A stretch of 64,000 bases of DNA, taken from positions 1-64,000 of the forward strand of contig CAIJYV010000022.1 of the NCBI GenBank assembly GCA_903825035.1. Reading direction: 5' to 3'. A model generated the notes under the pieces. It had not been told where the DNA came from. It made no database searches and saw nothing but the letters and a program-made list of their open reading frames with translations. The stretch's first letter is position 1, and each line of letters starts with the position of its first letter. Below are positions 48,280-56,461 of the stretch, one piece after another. This DNA comes from an uncultured Actinomycetes bacterium (GTDB lineage Bacteria; Actinomycetota; Acidimicrobiia; Acidimicrobiales; RAAP-2). The position numbers and the translations under genes were made by a program.

Positions 48280-51365
<3,086 letters not shown>

Positions 51366-51390: not shown

Positions 51391-53250
51391 ATGGCTGCAT
51401 CGACGTTCTCACCAGGACACGTACTCGCTAAGCGTTACCAGATCCAAGAACTCATTGGCGTGGGAACCACTGCCGAGGTTTACATCGCCGAAGACCTCTC
51501 ACTGCACCGCACAATTGTGGCCAAGGTGCTTTTGCCCGAACTCGCTGCTCATAACGATGTGCGTAATGAATTTCGTGACCACATCGTTCGTGGCGCAACC
51601 TTAAGCCACCCGAGCATCGCAAAAATCTTTGACGGGGGACAAGATTCCGGTGCCTACTTCATGATTACCGAGTACTTGCCGGGCGGCTCACTCGCTGAGC
51701 TCATCGGTGAGGGCCAAGTCCTGTCAATGGCCGACGCCGCAAAGATTGGCCAAGACATCGCATCGGCTCTGGACTATTTGGCTCGAGAAGGTTTCGTTCT
51801 CGGCTCGCTAACGCCCGCGAAGTTGTTGTTCGATCAAGCGGGAAATATTCGCATTGCTGATGTTGCGCTCGCTGGCCTGGCCGACAACTATCGTCACGAC
51901 TTCACGCTTAATCAAGTGCGCTACTTAAGTCCCGAGCAAGCCCAAGGTCTTCCCGCCACCGAGAAGAGCGATGTCTACGCACTCGCTCTAATTATTTTTG
52001 AAGCCCTCACCGGTGAGCACGCGTTCCCAGGCAATTCGGCCGAACAGGTATTGCGTGACCGCATCACGTCGCCAATTCCCGCCCGTGGCGAATTGGGCAC
52101 CTTGGACATGGTCCTCGCCCAAGCCACCGTGCCAGATCCCGCAATGCGAGTCGACGCCTCCCAGCTCGAGCAACGCTTGTCAGGCATTGTCGAAACGATT
52201 CCTTCGTATTCAGAAATTCCCGCCGATAGCTCGGGCGACCCCTTCGACTGGGGATTTGAGGACGAAGTAGAAGAAGAGCAGAGCTTTGAAGAGGTAGCAC
52301 CGACACCATTCAAGGTGCGCGAACTTCCTGAGCGGGGGGCCGCCATTGGGTTTAACCCCGACGCCGTTCAAATCTCTGGTGGGCGACGCGCGCGTGATGT
52401 CGTGAATACTCGTGACTTCCAAGAAGTTAACGATGAGCAGGAGCCAATTGTAAAGGCCCGACCTGTTCCTCGCCGTCCCATGATTGATTCAGACCTAGTA
52501 TCGGCCAGCCGCCCTCGGGGATCTCGCCGAGGACTCGTGTTGGCGAGCATCGTGATTGTGGTGCTGCTCATTGCCGGTGGTGGCATGTTCGTCGCGGGCA
52601 TGTTTTCTTCATCCTCGACTGTGCCGTCTTTGGTGGGCAAGTCGATGACCGACGCAAGTTCGCTCGCCGCTAAGGCGGGTATTACTCTCACCGTTTCTTC
52701 ACACGCCCACTCAACCTCGGTGCCAGTGAATGACATCATCAGCCAAACTCCCGCCTCGGGAACTAGTTCGAAGTCGGTCAACGTCGTCGTCTCTGACGGT
52801 CCACTAATGACCACGATTCCAGCTGGTCTCAAGGGTCTGGACTGTGTTGGCGCTACAGCCAAACTGGCCCGGGTCGGCGTCGTTGCGACCTGCCCCGCAA
52901 CCCAACACGTGGCAAGCGCTACGGTCGCGGTCGGGCGCGTAGCGGAAGTTCTCTACAACTCGACGGTGAACCCAGTTTCGGTTCCATCGGGTGCTCACGT
53001 CATCTTGGCCCTCTCATCGGGTAAGGGGACGGGTACGACCACTACGACGACTGTCGCTGGTCCCGCCGTGCCAAACTTCGTGGGTATGTCCCCAGCTCAG
53101 GTCAACGCATTGTCGGCCTCTTCTGGTTACTACTACCACACCGTTGGAGTTCACGCCGGGACGAAGGGTTGGACTCGGGTCTTGAGCCAGAGCCCAGCTG
53201 CCGGAAGTCCGCTGAAAAAGCACAGCACGATCACCCTCAACGTCAACTAA
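51391..53250 (+). CDS. PASTA-domain membrane pseudokinase (PknB-like architecture)
   Basis: 619 residues with the layout of a Ser/Thr receptor kinase: kinase-like domain (16-265), acidic juxtamembrane region (266-380), one membrane helix (381-404), then three PASTA repeats (about 410-473, 474-548, 556-619). The ATP-site Lys45 and the APE-type SPEQ (180-183) remain. The catalytic loop HRDxKPxN is changed to L137-G-S139-L-T-P-A-K144, removing both the catalytic Asp and the Asn. The helix-C Glu is His64, DFG is D157-V-A, and the Gly loop is GVGTTAEV. It should not phosphorylate. It may bind ATP and act as a wall-sensing scaffold, because PASTA repeats bind muropeptides or lipid II. AGAGG precedes the ATG. 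Confidence 0.88.
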   Translation: MAASTFSPGHVLAKRYQIQELIGVGTTAEVYIAEDLSLHRTIVAKVLLPELAAHNDVRNEFRDHIVRGATLSHPSIAKIFDGGQDSGAYFMITEYLPGGSLAELIGEGQVLSMADAAKIGQDIASALDYLAREGFVLGSLTPAKLLFDQAGNIRIADVALAGLADNYRHDFTLNQVRYLSPEQAQGLPATEKSDVYALALIIFEALTGEHAFPGNSAEQVLRDRITSPIPARGELGTLDMVLAQATVPDPAMRVDASQLEQRLSGIVETIPSYSEIPADSSGDPFDWGFEDEVEEEQSFEEVAPTPFKVRELPERGAAIGFNPDAVQISGGRRARDVVNTRDFQEVNDEQEPIVKARPVPRRPMIDSDLVSASRPRGSRRGLVLASIVIVVLLIAGGGMFVAGMFSSSSTVPSLVGKSMTDASSLAAKAGITLTVSSHAHSTSVPVNDIISQTPASGTSSKSVNVVVSDGPLMTTIPAGLKGLDCVGATAKLARVGVVATCPATQHVASATVAVGRVAEVLYNSTVNPVSVPSGAHVILALSSGKGTGTTTTTTVAGPAVPNFVGMSPAQVNALSASSGYYYHTVGVHAGTKGWTRVLSQSPAAGSPLKKHSTITLNVN

Positions 53251-53316: not shown

Positions 53317-53619
53317 ATGAGTAGTCCACTCTCTAGAGAAGAGGTCGCCAAGGTCGCGAAATTGGCACGTTTGCGCATCACCGATGCCGAACTTGAGCAA
53401 TTCACTGAACAGCTTGGCCAAATCCTCGAGCACGCCCACGACATGACCTCTCTCAATCTCGCTGATGTCGAGCCCACGGGCCACCCCTTCGGATTAATCA
53501 ATGTGATGCGTGATGATGTCGTTCGCCCGTCACTGGATCGCGACGCGGTCTTGGCTGAAGCACCAGCTTCCGAAGATGGTCGATTCGCAGTTCCTCGCAT
53601 TATGGGAGAAGCACCATGA
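53317..53619 (+). CDS. gatC: Glutamyl-tRNA(Gln)/Asp-tRNA(Asn) amidotransferase subunit C
   Basis: 100 residues. LSREEVAKVAKLARLRITDAELEQF start and the LNLADVEPTGHPFGLINVMRDDV segment that wraps GatA are typical. The small subunit stabilises GatA-GatB. The stop overlaps gatA by ATGA. Confidence 0.94.
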   Translation: MSSPLSREEVAKVAKLARLRITDAELEQFTEQLGQILEHAHDMTSLNLADVEPTGHPFGLINVMRDDVVRPSLDRDAVLAEAPASEDGRFAVPRIMGEAP

Positions 53620-55037
53620 AAAACGCAACCGACATCGCCGCGGCGGTAAACGCCAAGATCAGTTCGGCGAGTGCTGAGCTCGACAAATCACTCGCGGTAA
53701 TTGCGGAGAAGAACGGTGCAATCAACGCCTTCTTATTCGTTGACACCGATGGGGCCAAGAGCTTCGCATCGAATGTTGACGAGAGAATTGCTCAGGGCGA
53801 GAAACTGCCGCTCGCCGGTGTTCCGATTGCAATCAAGGACAACCTTTGCCAGACTGGCGTGCCAACAACCTGCTCGTCAAAAATTCTGGCCGATTGGCGT
53901 CCTCCCTATACCGCAACAGTTGTTGAACGGCTGATTGCCGCGGGAGCCATTCCGGTTGGCAAGACGAACTTGGATGAGTTCGCTATGGGCTCATCAACCG
54001 AGACTTCGGCGTTTGGCCCGACCAAAAACCCACTCGACCTCACCCGTGTCCCCGGTGGTTCGTCAGGCGGATCGGCCGCCGCAGTAGCTGCTGACATGAC
54101 GCCAATTTCCTTAGGGTCAGACACCGGTGGATCAATTCGTCAGCCCGCTGCATTGTGCGGACTTGTTGGCATTAAGCCGACCTACGGTCTTGTCTCCCGT
54201 TACGGATTGATTGCCTTCGCCTCCTCGCTCGACCAAGTTGGACCATTCGCCAAAACCGTTGCGGACGCGGCGCTGGTCCTTGAGGTGATTGCTGGACATG
54301 ACCCGATGGACTCAACCTCCTTGCCCGAGCCCGCTCCGTCGCTGGTGGCGCATGTAAATGATGGTGTCGCTGGAAAGCGCGTTGCGCTCGTGAAGGAACT
54401 CTACGAAGGCGCGGACGACGAAGTCGTCGCCTCGGTCAAAGCTGCCGTGGCTGCTCTCGAAGCCGCCGGGGCGACCATTGTGGAACTTTCGATCCCTGAG
54501 CTTCGTTTAGGGCTGAGCGCCTACTATCTAATCGCTCCCGCGGAAGCTTCGAGCAACCTCGCTCGATACGATGGCGTTCGATTTGGTTTGCGTGAACAAG
54601 CCGAGGACGTCAACGATATGTACGAAGCGACGCGAACTGCGGGGTTTGGCGCCGAAGTGAAACGTCGAATTATGTTGGGCACCTACGCACTGTCGGCTGG
54701 TTACTTTGACGCTTACTACGGGCAAGCTTTGAAGGTCCGCACCCAAATGATTAAGGCCTTCGCCAAGGCTTACGAACAAGCGGACATGCTGATTGGCGCT
54801 ACTACGCCAACTGTCGCCTTTGAATTTGGATCGAAGACATCGAATCCAATGGCGATGTACTTGTCGGATGTTTTCACAATTCCAACGAACCTGGCTGGCG
54901 ACGCCGCCGTGTCAGTTCCTTTCGGCACTGGCGAAAACGACCTTCCAATTGGTGTTCAAATTCTTGGACCGGGCCGGAGCGAGGCTACTTTGCTAGCGGC
55001 TGCGCGAGTTCTCGAGATTGCTGACGGTCGAGCATGA
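53616..55037 (+). CDS. gatA: Glutamyl-tRNA(Gln)/Asp-tRNA(Asn) amidotransferase subunit A
   Basis: Releases ammonia from glutamine or asparagine for the GatB reaction. 473 residues, amidase-signature fold. The Ser-cisSer-Lys triad is Lys74 (IAIKDN), Ser149 (GGSSGGS) and Ser173 (DTGGSIRQPA). ATGA overlaps at both ends couple it to gatC and gatB. Its presence implies indirect Gln-tRNA(Gln) formation and misacylation by a non-discriminating GluRS. Confidence 0.96.
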   Translation: MKNATDIAAAVNAKISSASAELDKSLAVIAEKNGAINAFLFVDTDGAKSFASNVDERIAQGEKLPLAGVPIAIKDNLCQTGVPTTCSSKILADWRPPYTATVVERLIAAGAIPVGKTNLDEFAMGSSTETSAFGPTKNPLDLTRVPGGSSGGSAAAVAADMTPISLGSDTGGSIRQPAALCGLVGIKPTYGLVSRYGLIAFASSLDQVGPFAKTVADAALVLEVIAGHDPMDSTSLPEPAPSLVAHVNDGVAGKRVALVKELYEGADDEVVASVKAAVAALEAAGATIVELSIPELRLGLSAYYLIAPAEASSNLARYDGVRFGLREQAEDVNDMYEATRTAGFGAEVKRRIMLGTYALSAGYFDAYYGQALKVRTQMIKAFAKAYEQADMLIGATTPTVAFEFGSKTSNPMAMYLSDVFTIPTNLAGDAAVSVPFGTGENDLPIGVQILGPGRSEATLLAAARVLEIADGRA

Positions 55038-56461
55038 CATTGCCAAACGGATGGGAAATGGTTGTTGGGCTCGAAGTCCACACCGAATTGAAAACTGCAA
55101 CAAAGATGTTTTGTGGTTGCGCTAACGCATTCGGATCCGAACCGAACACCAATATTTGTCCCGTCTGCCTTGGCTTGCCGGGTTCACTTCCGGTACTGAA
55201 CAAGATGGCGGTTGAATTGGCGATGGCCATTGGCGTCGCCCTCCATTGCACAATCGCACCTTCGACCTTTCACCGGAAGAACTATTTCTACCCGGACATG
55301 CCGAAGGATTTTCAAATTTCGCAGTACGACCTACCAATTAACTCTCGTGGGTATCTAGACCTTCCCGATGGTTCGCAAATCAGTGTGGAGCGAGCTCACC
55401 TCGAAGAGGACACTGGTAAGTCGACGCACCTTGGTGGAACTGGCCGAATTCACGGCGCGGACCGATCCATGGTCGATTACAACCGCTCCGGTGTTCCACT
55501 GGTAGAAATAGTGTCTGGTCCCGATATTCGCTCGGCGGCGCAGGCTCGAGCCTATGCGTCCGAGCTCCGGGGGATTCTGATCGCTACCGGTGCTTCCGAT
55601 GGTCGCATGGAAGAGGGGTCGATGAGATTCGACGCCAACGTATCTGTTCGTAAGAGTGGTGAGCCATTTGGAACTCGTTGCGAGATCAAGAACTTGAATT
55701 CTTTGCGATCGCTCCAGCGCGCAATTGACTACGAAGCGCTTCGCCAAATTGAGGTGCTTGAAGAAGGTGGCTCGATTCGCCAAGAGACTCGCCACTGGGA
55801 CGAGAACCGAGGTGAGACCTCAACGATGCGCGTAAAGGAAGAAGCCGAGGACTACCGCTACTTCCGCGAACCAGATTTGGTTGAATTAAGTCCAGATCAG
55901 GCTTGGCAGGACCGGGTCCGCGCAGCTCTTCCCCCAATGCCCGCCGCTCGACGTTCTCGGCTCGAAGAACTTCTCGGTGACCCATCTGATGCGCAACGTG
56001 ATGCCATCGGTACGGTGGTTGAACTAGACCTCGATGGTTTCGTGATTTCAGCGGCGCAAGCGAAGGCTGACGTGGCGATTGCCCTGGCGCGGTCGGCCAA
56101 CGAAATTGCGGCCGACATTGAGAATGTGGCGAAATTGAGCACGGAGGCCTTCGTAGCCACCGTCTTGATGGAGCAAAAGGGCGAACTCTCCGCAACCCAG
56201 GCCAAGAAGGTACTTGGTGTCTTGCTGGAATCTGGCGGAGATCCAAGCACAATTGCTAAGGCTTTGGGTTTTGAACAGATGGGTGCGGACGCACTAGGAG
56301 ACCTCGTTGCGAAGTGCATCGAGGAAAATCCCTCTGAATGGCAGCGCTACCGCGAAGGCGACGACAAACTGTCCCAGTTCTTCATTGGCCAAATCATGAA
56401 ACTGACCAAGGGTCAAGCCAACGGAAAATCAGTTATCGCTGAGTTGCAACAGCGTAAATAG
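55034..56461 (+). CDS. gatB: Glutamyl-tRNA(Gln)/Asp-tRNA(Asn) amidotransferase subunit B
   Basis: Binds the mischarged tRNA, activates the Glu/Asp side chain with ATP and amidates it. 475 residues. WEMVVGLEVHTELKT start, NTNICPVCLGLPGSLPVLN and the DFNRSGVPLVEI-type kinase-site segment (YNRSGVPLVEIVS) are present. The C-terminal YqeY-like tail domain ends GQIMKLTKGQANGKSV. Last gene of gatCAB. Confidence 0.96.
   Translation: MTLPNGWEMVVGLEVHTELKTATKMFCGCANAFGSEPNTNICPVCLGLPGSLPVLNKMAVELAMAIGVALHCTIAPSTFHRKNYFYPDMPKDFQISQYDLPINSRGYLDLPDGSQISVERAHLEEDTGKSTHLGGTGRIHGADRSMVDYNRSGVPLVEIVSGPDIRSAAQARAYASELRGILIATGASDGRMEEGSMRFDANVSVRKSGEPFGTRCEIKNLNSLRSLQRAIDYEALRQIEVLEEGGSIRQETRHWDENRGETSTMRVKEEAEDYRYFREPDLVELSPDQAWQDRVRAALPPMPAARRSRLEELLGDPSDAQRDAIGTVVELDLDGFVISAAQAKADVAIALARSANEIAADIENVAKLSTEAFVATVLMEQKGELSATQAKKVLGVLLESGGDPSTIAKALGFEQMGADALGDLVAKCIEENPSEWQRYREGDDKLSQFFIGQIMKLTKGQANGKSVIAELQQRK

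Follow-up and report, generated by a model that had tools for sequence, protein, structure and literature searches.

PASTA Ser/Thr kinases of the PknB/Stk1 type (NCBIfam NF033483) consist of a kinase-like domain, a linker, a transmembrane stretch and PASTA repeats. In M. tuberculosis, N-lobe dimerisation activates PknB allosterically, according to the accessible part of PMC3601408. Moreover, the PknB residues T171 and T173 are autophosphorylated in M. tuberculosis, and the activity of T171A/T173A was found to be significantly compromised (PMC6428115, accessible text). It is not settled how PASTA kinases couple wall ligand, dimerisation and activation-loop phosphorylation, and the available text of PMC6428115 contradicts the prevailing model.

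Bacterial pseudokinases, defined by the loss of the beta-3 Lys, the HRD-Asp or the DFG-Asp, have been reviewed, and seven families are named in the accessible part of this review, where the word 'PASTA' occurs once, in the reference list (PMC12599244). For instance, the pseudokinase domain of MviN (ActPs3) is, like the protein described here, an actinobacterial cell-wall pseudokinase; the constraint on ActPs3 is concentrated on the N-lobe dimer interface, the beta-3 motif of MviN reads VALT, a DFG is lacking and the ActPs3 family carries an activation-loop deletion (PMC12599244, available text). ActPs1, ActPs2, GLW, CP1, DYD and DLHK are likewise conserved families of the Hanks type whose motifs are impaired, and several of them are membrane-bound, but none is described with PASTA repeats or with the motif set reported below in the part of the review that was accessible (PMC12599244). 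No PASTA pseudokinase was found in the literature searched by title and start of abstract, a search with preprints and most subscription papers outside its scope. A related working idea is known from HER3-like pseudokinase co-receptors, in which a dead receptor activates a live partner allosterically. The pairing presumed below shares this idea, although ligands and lineage are unrelated.

The window analysed here, a stretch of DNA of 64,000 nucleotides, encodes a protein with the layout of PknB/Stk1. It differs from these kinases in lacking the catalytic Asp, the catalytic-loop Asn, the catalytic Lys, the alpha-C Glu and the Phe and Gly of DFG, it scores under the family cut-off, and the same genome has a second, motif-intact PknB. 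In contrast to ActPs3, of which all canonical catalytic motifs including the beta-3 Lys are degraded (PMC12599244, accessible part), the protein has PASTA repeats and keeps Lys45 and Asp157. An ActPs3-like constraint on the N-lobe is present, with Arg15 and Asp81 invariant and Leu38 nearly so in the genus.

The receptor gene and its surroundings

A preliminary description of the locus had reported an intact PknB-like gene between ligA and gatCAB. This is borne out by an intact open reading frame of 619 amino acids that spans positions 51391 to 53250 exactly and encodes a PASTA receptor whose kinase domain is degraded. The following features were located in the window:

49335 to 51365, plus strand: ligA, conserved neighbour
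51391 to 53250, plus strand: PASTA receptor pseudokinase gene, 619 amino acids, 25 bases 3' of ligA and 66 bases 5' of gatC on the same strand
51415 to 52200, plus strand: kinase-like domain, residues 9 to 270 (Pfam PF00069 and PF07714, AlphaFold2 model, PDB matches)
51433 to 51435, plus strand: Arg15, equivalent of PknB R10 by alignment to PknB, presumed N-lobe dimer interface (87/87 in the genus)
51502 to 51504, plus strand: Leu38, equivalent of PknB L33, presumed dimer interface (84/87 in the genus)
51523 to 51525, plus strand: Lys45, the beta-3 lysine, kept
51580 to 51582, plus strand: His64, replacing the alpha-C Glu
51631 to 51633, plus strand: Asp81, equivalent of PknB D76, presumed dimer interface (88/88 in the genus), followed by Gly82 (Trp in active relatives)
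51799 to 51822, plus strand: degraded catalytic loop LGSLTPAK, aligned with HRDVKPAN of active relatives
51859 to 51867, plus strand: DVA in place of DFG, with Asp157 kept
52327 to 52383, plus strand: juxtamembrane short motif (IGF..P...QI, a loose pattern; SIGFRPPSPDQI-like) in the cytoplasmic linker
52531 to 52605, plus strand: hydrophobic transmembrane stretch, residues 381 to 405, recognised by eye from the sequence
52618 to 53247, plus strand: extracellular PASTA region, residues 410 to 619 (Pfam PF03793, two stretches, 79.4 bits, above the cut-off)

Besides the PASTA repeats, a Pkinase domain was found by Pfam with 94.2 bits, above the cut-off, and NF033483 (Stk1 family PASTA kinase) aligned over residues 9 to 618 with 247.5 bits, which is below its cut-off of 450. 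The catalytic residues had been named correctly in the preliminary description: Lys45 is kept, the alpha-C Glu is His64, HRD is L137-G138-S139, the catalytic-loop Asn is Lys144 and DFG is D157-V158-A159. A further loss that had been overlooked concerns the catalytic-loop Lys (HRDxK), which is Thr141. Since identical losses are present in two relatives with about 80% identity to the window protein (G143 and G145), a sequencing error is unlikely.

The AlphaFold2 model of the kinase-like domain, built from a 72-sequence alignment, has the helices and strands of the kinase fold (pLDDT 93.2, pTM 0.91). The best match in the PDB was M. tuberculosis PknA (4ow8; Z 33.0, rmsd 2.3, 265 aligned residues), and PknB was matched with 2fum (Z 31.5, rmsd 1.8, 250 aligned residues). 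Arg15, Leu38 and Asp81 align with R10, L33 and D76 of PknB (numbers counted from the alignment), which we take to be residues of the N-lobe dimer interface; structures of the PknB mutants L33D and D76A are among the PDB matches. The protein, which has PknA and PknB among its closest solved folds, keeps the counterparts of these residues. However, since the three residues are conserved to the same extent in active kinases and in the genus, they may have been retained for homodimers or for the fold.

Two observations concern the remaining parts of the protein. The juxtamembrane motif stands out within a variable linker and is also present in some active orthologues. Midway through the PASTA region, Cys485 and Cys501 (52843 to 52893) are kept in 80% or more of the 83 fully aligned rows of the genus, and the conserved pair suggests a disulfide in the sensor.

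The idea of a conserved ligA-gatCAB locus held for its upstream side only. LigA adjoins the orthologue in 88 of 91 loci of the window's genus (g1), in 5/5 loci of g10 and in 30 of 42 other loci of the family. By contrast, gatC or gatA, which lie at 53317 to 56461 in the window, were found within a flank of at most 2.5 kb in 14 of the 91 g1 loci and in none of the 47 others (0/5 in g10, 0/42 in the rest of the family), and a conserved gatC context was thus rejected. The commonest downstream open reading frame resembles an SDR oxidoreductase: both of what we take to be the SDR signature motifs are present in 63 of 128 downstream frames.

Catalytic losses and selection within the genus

The gene was read in 91 rows, some of them partial, after searching 99 g1 genomes. 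Among readable orthologues, the HRD Asp is present in 10 of 90, the HRD Arg in 0/90 and the catalytic Lys in 1/90, and the catalytic-loop Asn is lacking in all 90, with Lys at this position in 72. The alpha-C Glu is found in 8 of 88 rows, as compared to 41/41 in the comparison set, and the DFG Gly in 10 of 90, while the DFG Asp is present in 87 of 90. The question raised in the preliminary description, whether Lys45 is retained, can be answered with yes for 75 of 87 rows, but the remaining 12 have His, Gln or Arg. When five residues were scored in 87 rows (beta-3 Lys, alpha-C Glu, HRD Asp, Asn and DFG Asp), 69 rows were found to keep two, 11 to keep three, six to keep one and one to keep none; three is the maximum. 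The ten rows with an HRD Asp also lack the Asn, and the tree groups seven of them together and three together. The bacterial pseudokinase definition of PMC12599244, in its accessible wording, applies because the HRD-Asp is Ser139 in the window and a residue other than Asp in 80 of 90 g1 rows.

Selection was estimated as dN/dS (Nei-Gojobori without correction for codon bias, ligA taken in parts) for eight g1 pairs with dS below 1.5; dS is saturated for the window gene, G143 and G145. The kinase domain gave values of 0.028 to 0.104, and ligA, at 0.049 to 0.199, lay above the kinase domain in each of the same eight pairs. The PASTA part (0.070 to 0.303) is at least as free as the linker (0.039 to 0.222).

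The genus has also acquired conserved residues of its own. At 15 sites, a residue that is conserved in active relatives is replaced by another residue conserved in g1; seven of these sites belong to the N-lobe, where they lie in alpha-C and beta-4/5 or close by (54, 58, 65, 77, 82, 84 and 89), and three are in the catalytic loop (138, 141 and 144). At position 82, 90% of the g1 rows have Gly and 100% of the active relatives have Trp. In total, 72 of 262 columns are 90% conserved in g1 versus 127 of 262 in the active set. The entropy in g1 is zero for Arg15 and Asp81, and Leu38 ranks 43 of 262, the alpha-C Glu 230 and the catalytic Asp 243. The low dN/dS of the kinase domain, the invariant Arg15 and Asp81 and the variable catalytic columns together imply that catalysis has been released and part of the surface held.

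The gene has no clear orthologue in 8 of the 99 genomes and is a fragment at a contig start in G088. A loss of the gene in some members of the genus was considered and rejected: six of the eight genomes are also without a ligA match and the other two have ligA at a contig end, and true gene loss is therefore not indicated. The earlier suggestion of selection rather than decay is supported, as all g1 orthologues read are degraded, the kinase domain is under stronger constraint than ligA by dN/dS and own conserved residues have been gained. Thus, as far as can be judged from sequences, a non-catalytic PASTA receptor that is maintained by selection is well supported.

Orthologues outside the genus

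The preliminary description had proposed a comparison of orthologues at the ligA-gatC position, with intact HRD and DFG in close orthologues as a refutation. The outcome is divided: all those of the same genus turned out to be degraded, but most of the wider family keeps HRD and DFG. Outside g1 and g10, 42 of 50 genomes of the family were read, and all five scored residues are kept in 41 of the 42 orthologues. The exception, G006 of genus g7 (L145), has HSA for HRD with the four other scored residues kept, which is a separate loss of the catalytic Asp. In g10, Lys45 is replaced by Arg and HRD by HGA in all five rows, which keep the Glu, the Asn and the DFG Asp. The HRD is intact in g18; g19 reads HGD at this motif and has the Lys and the Asn. 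Since all g1 orthologues are degraded and most of the wider family is intact, the conversion can be dated to approximately the base of the genus. In a tree of the kinase domain from which the catalytic columns had been removed, and which was built without four partial rows of g1 and one row of g18, g1 forms one clade (87 rows, SH-aLRT 90) near g10 plus g19 and g18. On the tree, loss of the intact state requires three changes, which are most simply placed in g1, g10 and G006. In other families of the class, ligA adjoins the gene at eight loci; the HRD is intact in seven of these and the eighth was unreadable by pattern.

A second family of the order, f2, has degraded copies as well. At least one of the five residues is lost in 29 of the 30 f2 rows that were counted (L221 to L250), and 20 more, inspected by eye only (L345 to L364), also look degraded; ligA lies beside the gene at 25/30 and 17/20 of these loci, respectively. 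Of the presumed interface residues, Leu38 survives in 7 and Asp81 in 24 of the 30 counted rows, which speaks against the pairing with PknB considered below. The catalytic loop HGELTPSK of part of the f2 members is close to HGELSPSK in part of g1. A shared pseudokinase ancestor of g1 and f2 is disfavoured, as a second tree without the catalytic columns joins g1 with g10, g19 and g18 and f2 with other families, and a ligA tree sets f2 outside f1 (each of these two trees included 32 of the 91 g1 rows). In the second tree, the 30 f2 rows form a single clade (SH-aLRT 100). Judging from these trees, separate origins of the g1 and f2 degradations are probable but not proven, because AU tests do not exclude g1 and f2 as one clade (p 0.097 and p 0.16).

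PknB as a candidate partner and possible modes of action

The genome of the window (1.42 Mb, 37 contigs) is 96.5% complete, and a further kinase could therefore be missing from it. A profile search with PF00069 at E 0.001 gave two matches, the gene described here and a canonical PknB of 632 amino acids on contig 18 (L161, G000:C18), which lies downstream of a PBP-like open reading frame (by eye), two FHA domains and a PP2C phosphatase. One FHA domain of the genome is encoded in an open frame of 156 amino acids (L251, G000:C28:21988-22176), which, at a guess, could possibly be a GarA/OdhI-like target of PknB.

A PknB match, sometimes a fragment, was present in 41/41 g1 genomes searched, and HRD and DFG are intact in 30/30 g1 loci read. 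When PknB of 29 g1 loci was compared with PknB of 20 loci from other genera of the family, 25 columns were found to differ. The activation loop holds seven of these, four are no more than three residues away from the counterparts of Arg15 and Leu38, and the remainder are mostly in the C-lobe. No change was seen in g1 at the three interface columns, and a co-evolution of PknB at these columns was thus rejected.

The activation loop of PknB was read in 50 of 99 g1 genomes, 44 of 55 other genomes of the family and 30 of 61 f2 genomes at the two threonine positions that we take to correspond to M. tuberculosis T171 and T173. The T171 equivalent is present in 7 of 50 g1 genomes (lost in 43) versus 44/44 family genomes outside g1, and the T173 equivalent in 0/50 versus 30/44. 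The loop has TQT in 30/30 other family genomes, only the first Thr in g10, g14, g18, g19 and g7 (14/14) and AEE in the window's own genome. Of the seven g1 genomes that keep the T171 equivalent, all but G098 branch early in the gene tree. In 83 rows for which both states are known, the first Thr is missing from 38, all of which have a degraded gene and have lost Trp82, and it is kept in all 33 with an intact gene and in 12 with a degraded one. The loss of the T171 equivalent amounts to two changes on the tree and one to two independent pairs (sign test p 1), so the link to the pseudokinase is beyond a statistical test. Moreover, f2 PknB keeps the T171 equivalent in 30/30 loci beside a degraded gene. 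For the T173 equivalent, a loss that tracks the pseudokinase was rejected, since g7 and g14 have lost this Thr with the gene intact (in all read but G006) and the f2 genus g77 (G236 and G253) keeps it beside degraded copies. Taken by its loop sequence, PknB of most g1 appears to have given up activation-loop phosphorylation.

We give about even odds to a wall-sensing PASTA pseudokinase that acts as a co-receptor, pairing with PknB and exerting allosteric control over it. By analogy with its family, the outer PASTA part would bind cell-wall material. The inner kinase-like domain, given the lost residues, would no longer transfer phosphate; it is kept by selection and would offer the N-lobe face that PASTA kinases use for back-to-back pairing. 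PknB, the sole other Hanks kinase found in the genome, would be the most likely partner, and the pseudokinase may set its activity by an allosteric effect that takes the place of phosphorylation of the activation loop.

The co-receptor paired with PknB is suggested by the kept interface residues, the rewired N-lobe, the finding of only two kinases in the genome and the fading phospho-switch of PknB. A bolder version, which we put forward tentatively, is that wall signalling in this lineage has shifted from phosphorylation-driven activation to one driven by a partner: the dead PASTA pseudokinase would switch PknB on, PknB could for this reason afford the loss of both activation-loop threonines, and the same gene would have been converted separately in f2, where part of the members have a similar loop, HG[ES]L[ST]PSK.

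A non-catalytic scaffold or decoy that does not pair with PknB is a less likely alternative. The PASTA part would localise the protein to sites of wall growth, and partners would be engaged via the juxtamembrane motif or by the protein as a substrate phosphorylated by PknB. The motif, identified by a loose pattern, is indeed present in 83/91 genus rows, 7/8 rows of g10, g18 and g19, 10/39 other orthologues of the family and 0/5 canonical PknB proteins, but it has no invariant Thr in the rows displayed, and the linker evolves under weaker constraint than the kinase domain, although it is not less constrained than the PASTA part. The three FHA domains found in the genome would suit a scaffold, as would the precedent of the MviN pseudokinase domain, which recruits FhaA (PMC12599244, accessible part).

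It is rather improbable that an ATP-dependent activity remains, either weak or of another kind such as metal-independent phosphotransfer, AMPylation or glutamylation. SelO and SidJ are examples of such repurposed domains (PMC12599244, available text). Here, an activity of this type would rely on Lys45 and Asp157, which are jointly kept in 75 of 87 rows, and the frequent Lys at the Asn position would be compatible with it; however, Lys45 is lost in the other 12 rows and there is next to no constraint on the column of the catalytic Asp. The adenine-contacting Ala of the VAIK motif is replaced by Val, Ile, Thr, Ser or Met in 67/87 g1 rows, which should crowd the nucleotide pocket and also speaks against an ATP-dependent activity. 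Finally, relaxed decay of a dispensable paralogue or an assembly error is hardly credible: the position of the catalytic Asp is highly variable, but the kinase-domain dN/dS of 0.03 to 0.10, the genus-specific conserved residues, the lack of a stop within any match row displayed and the coincidence of a missing orthologue with a missing ligA match or a contig end in eight genomes all argue against it.

With a selected dead receptor beside a PknB without phospho-threonines, one lineage seems to have separated ligand sensing, dimerisation and loop phosphorylation. The small system, with two Hanks domains found in a genome of 1.4 Mb, lends itself to a direct test of activation by heterodimers. Moreover, the bacterial pseudokinases, whose families are mostly of unknown function according to the accessible part of PMC12599244, would gain a PASTA receptor type.
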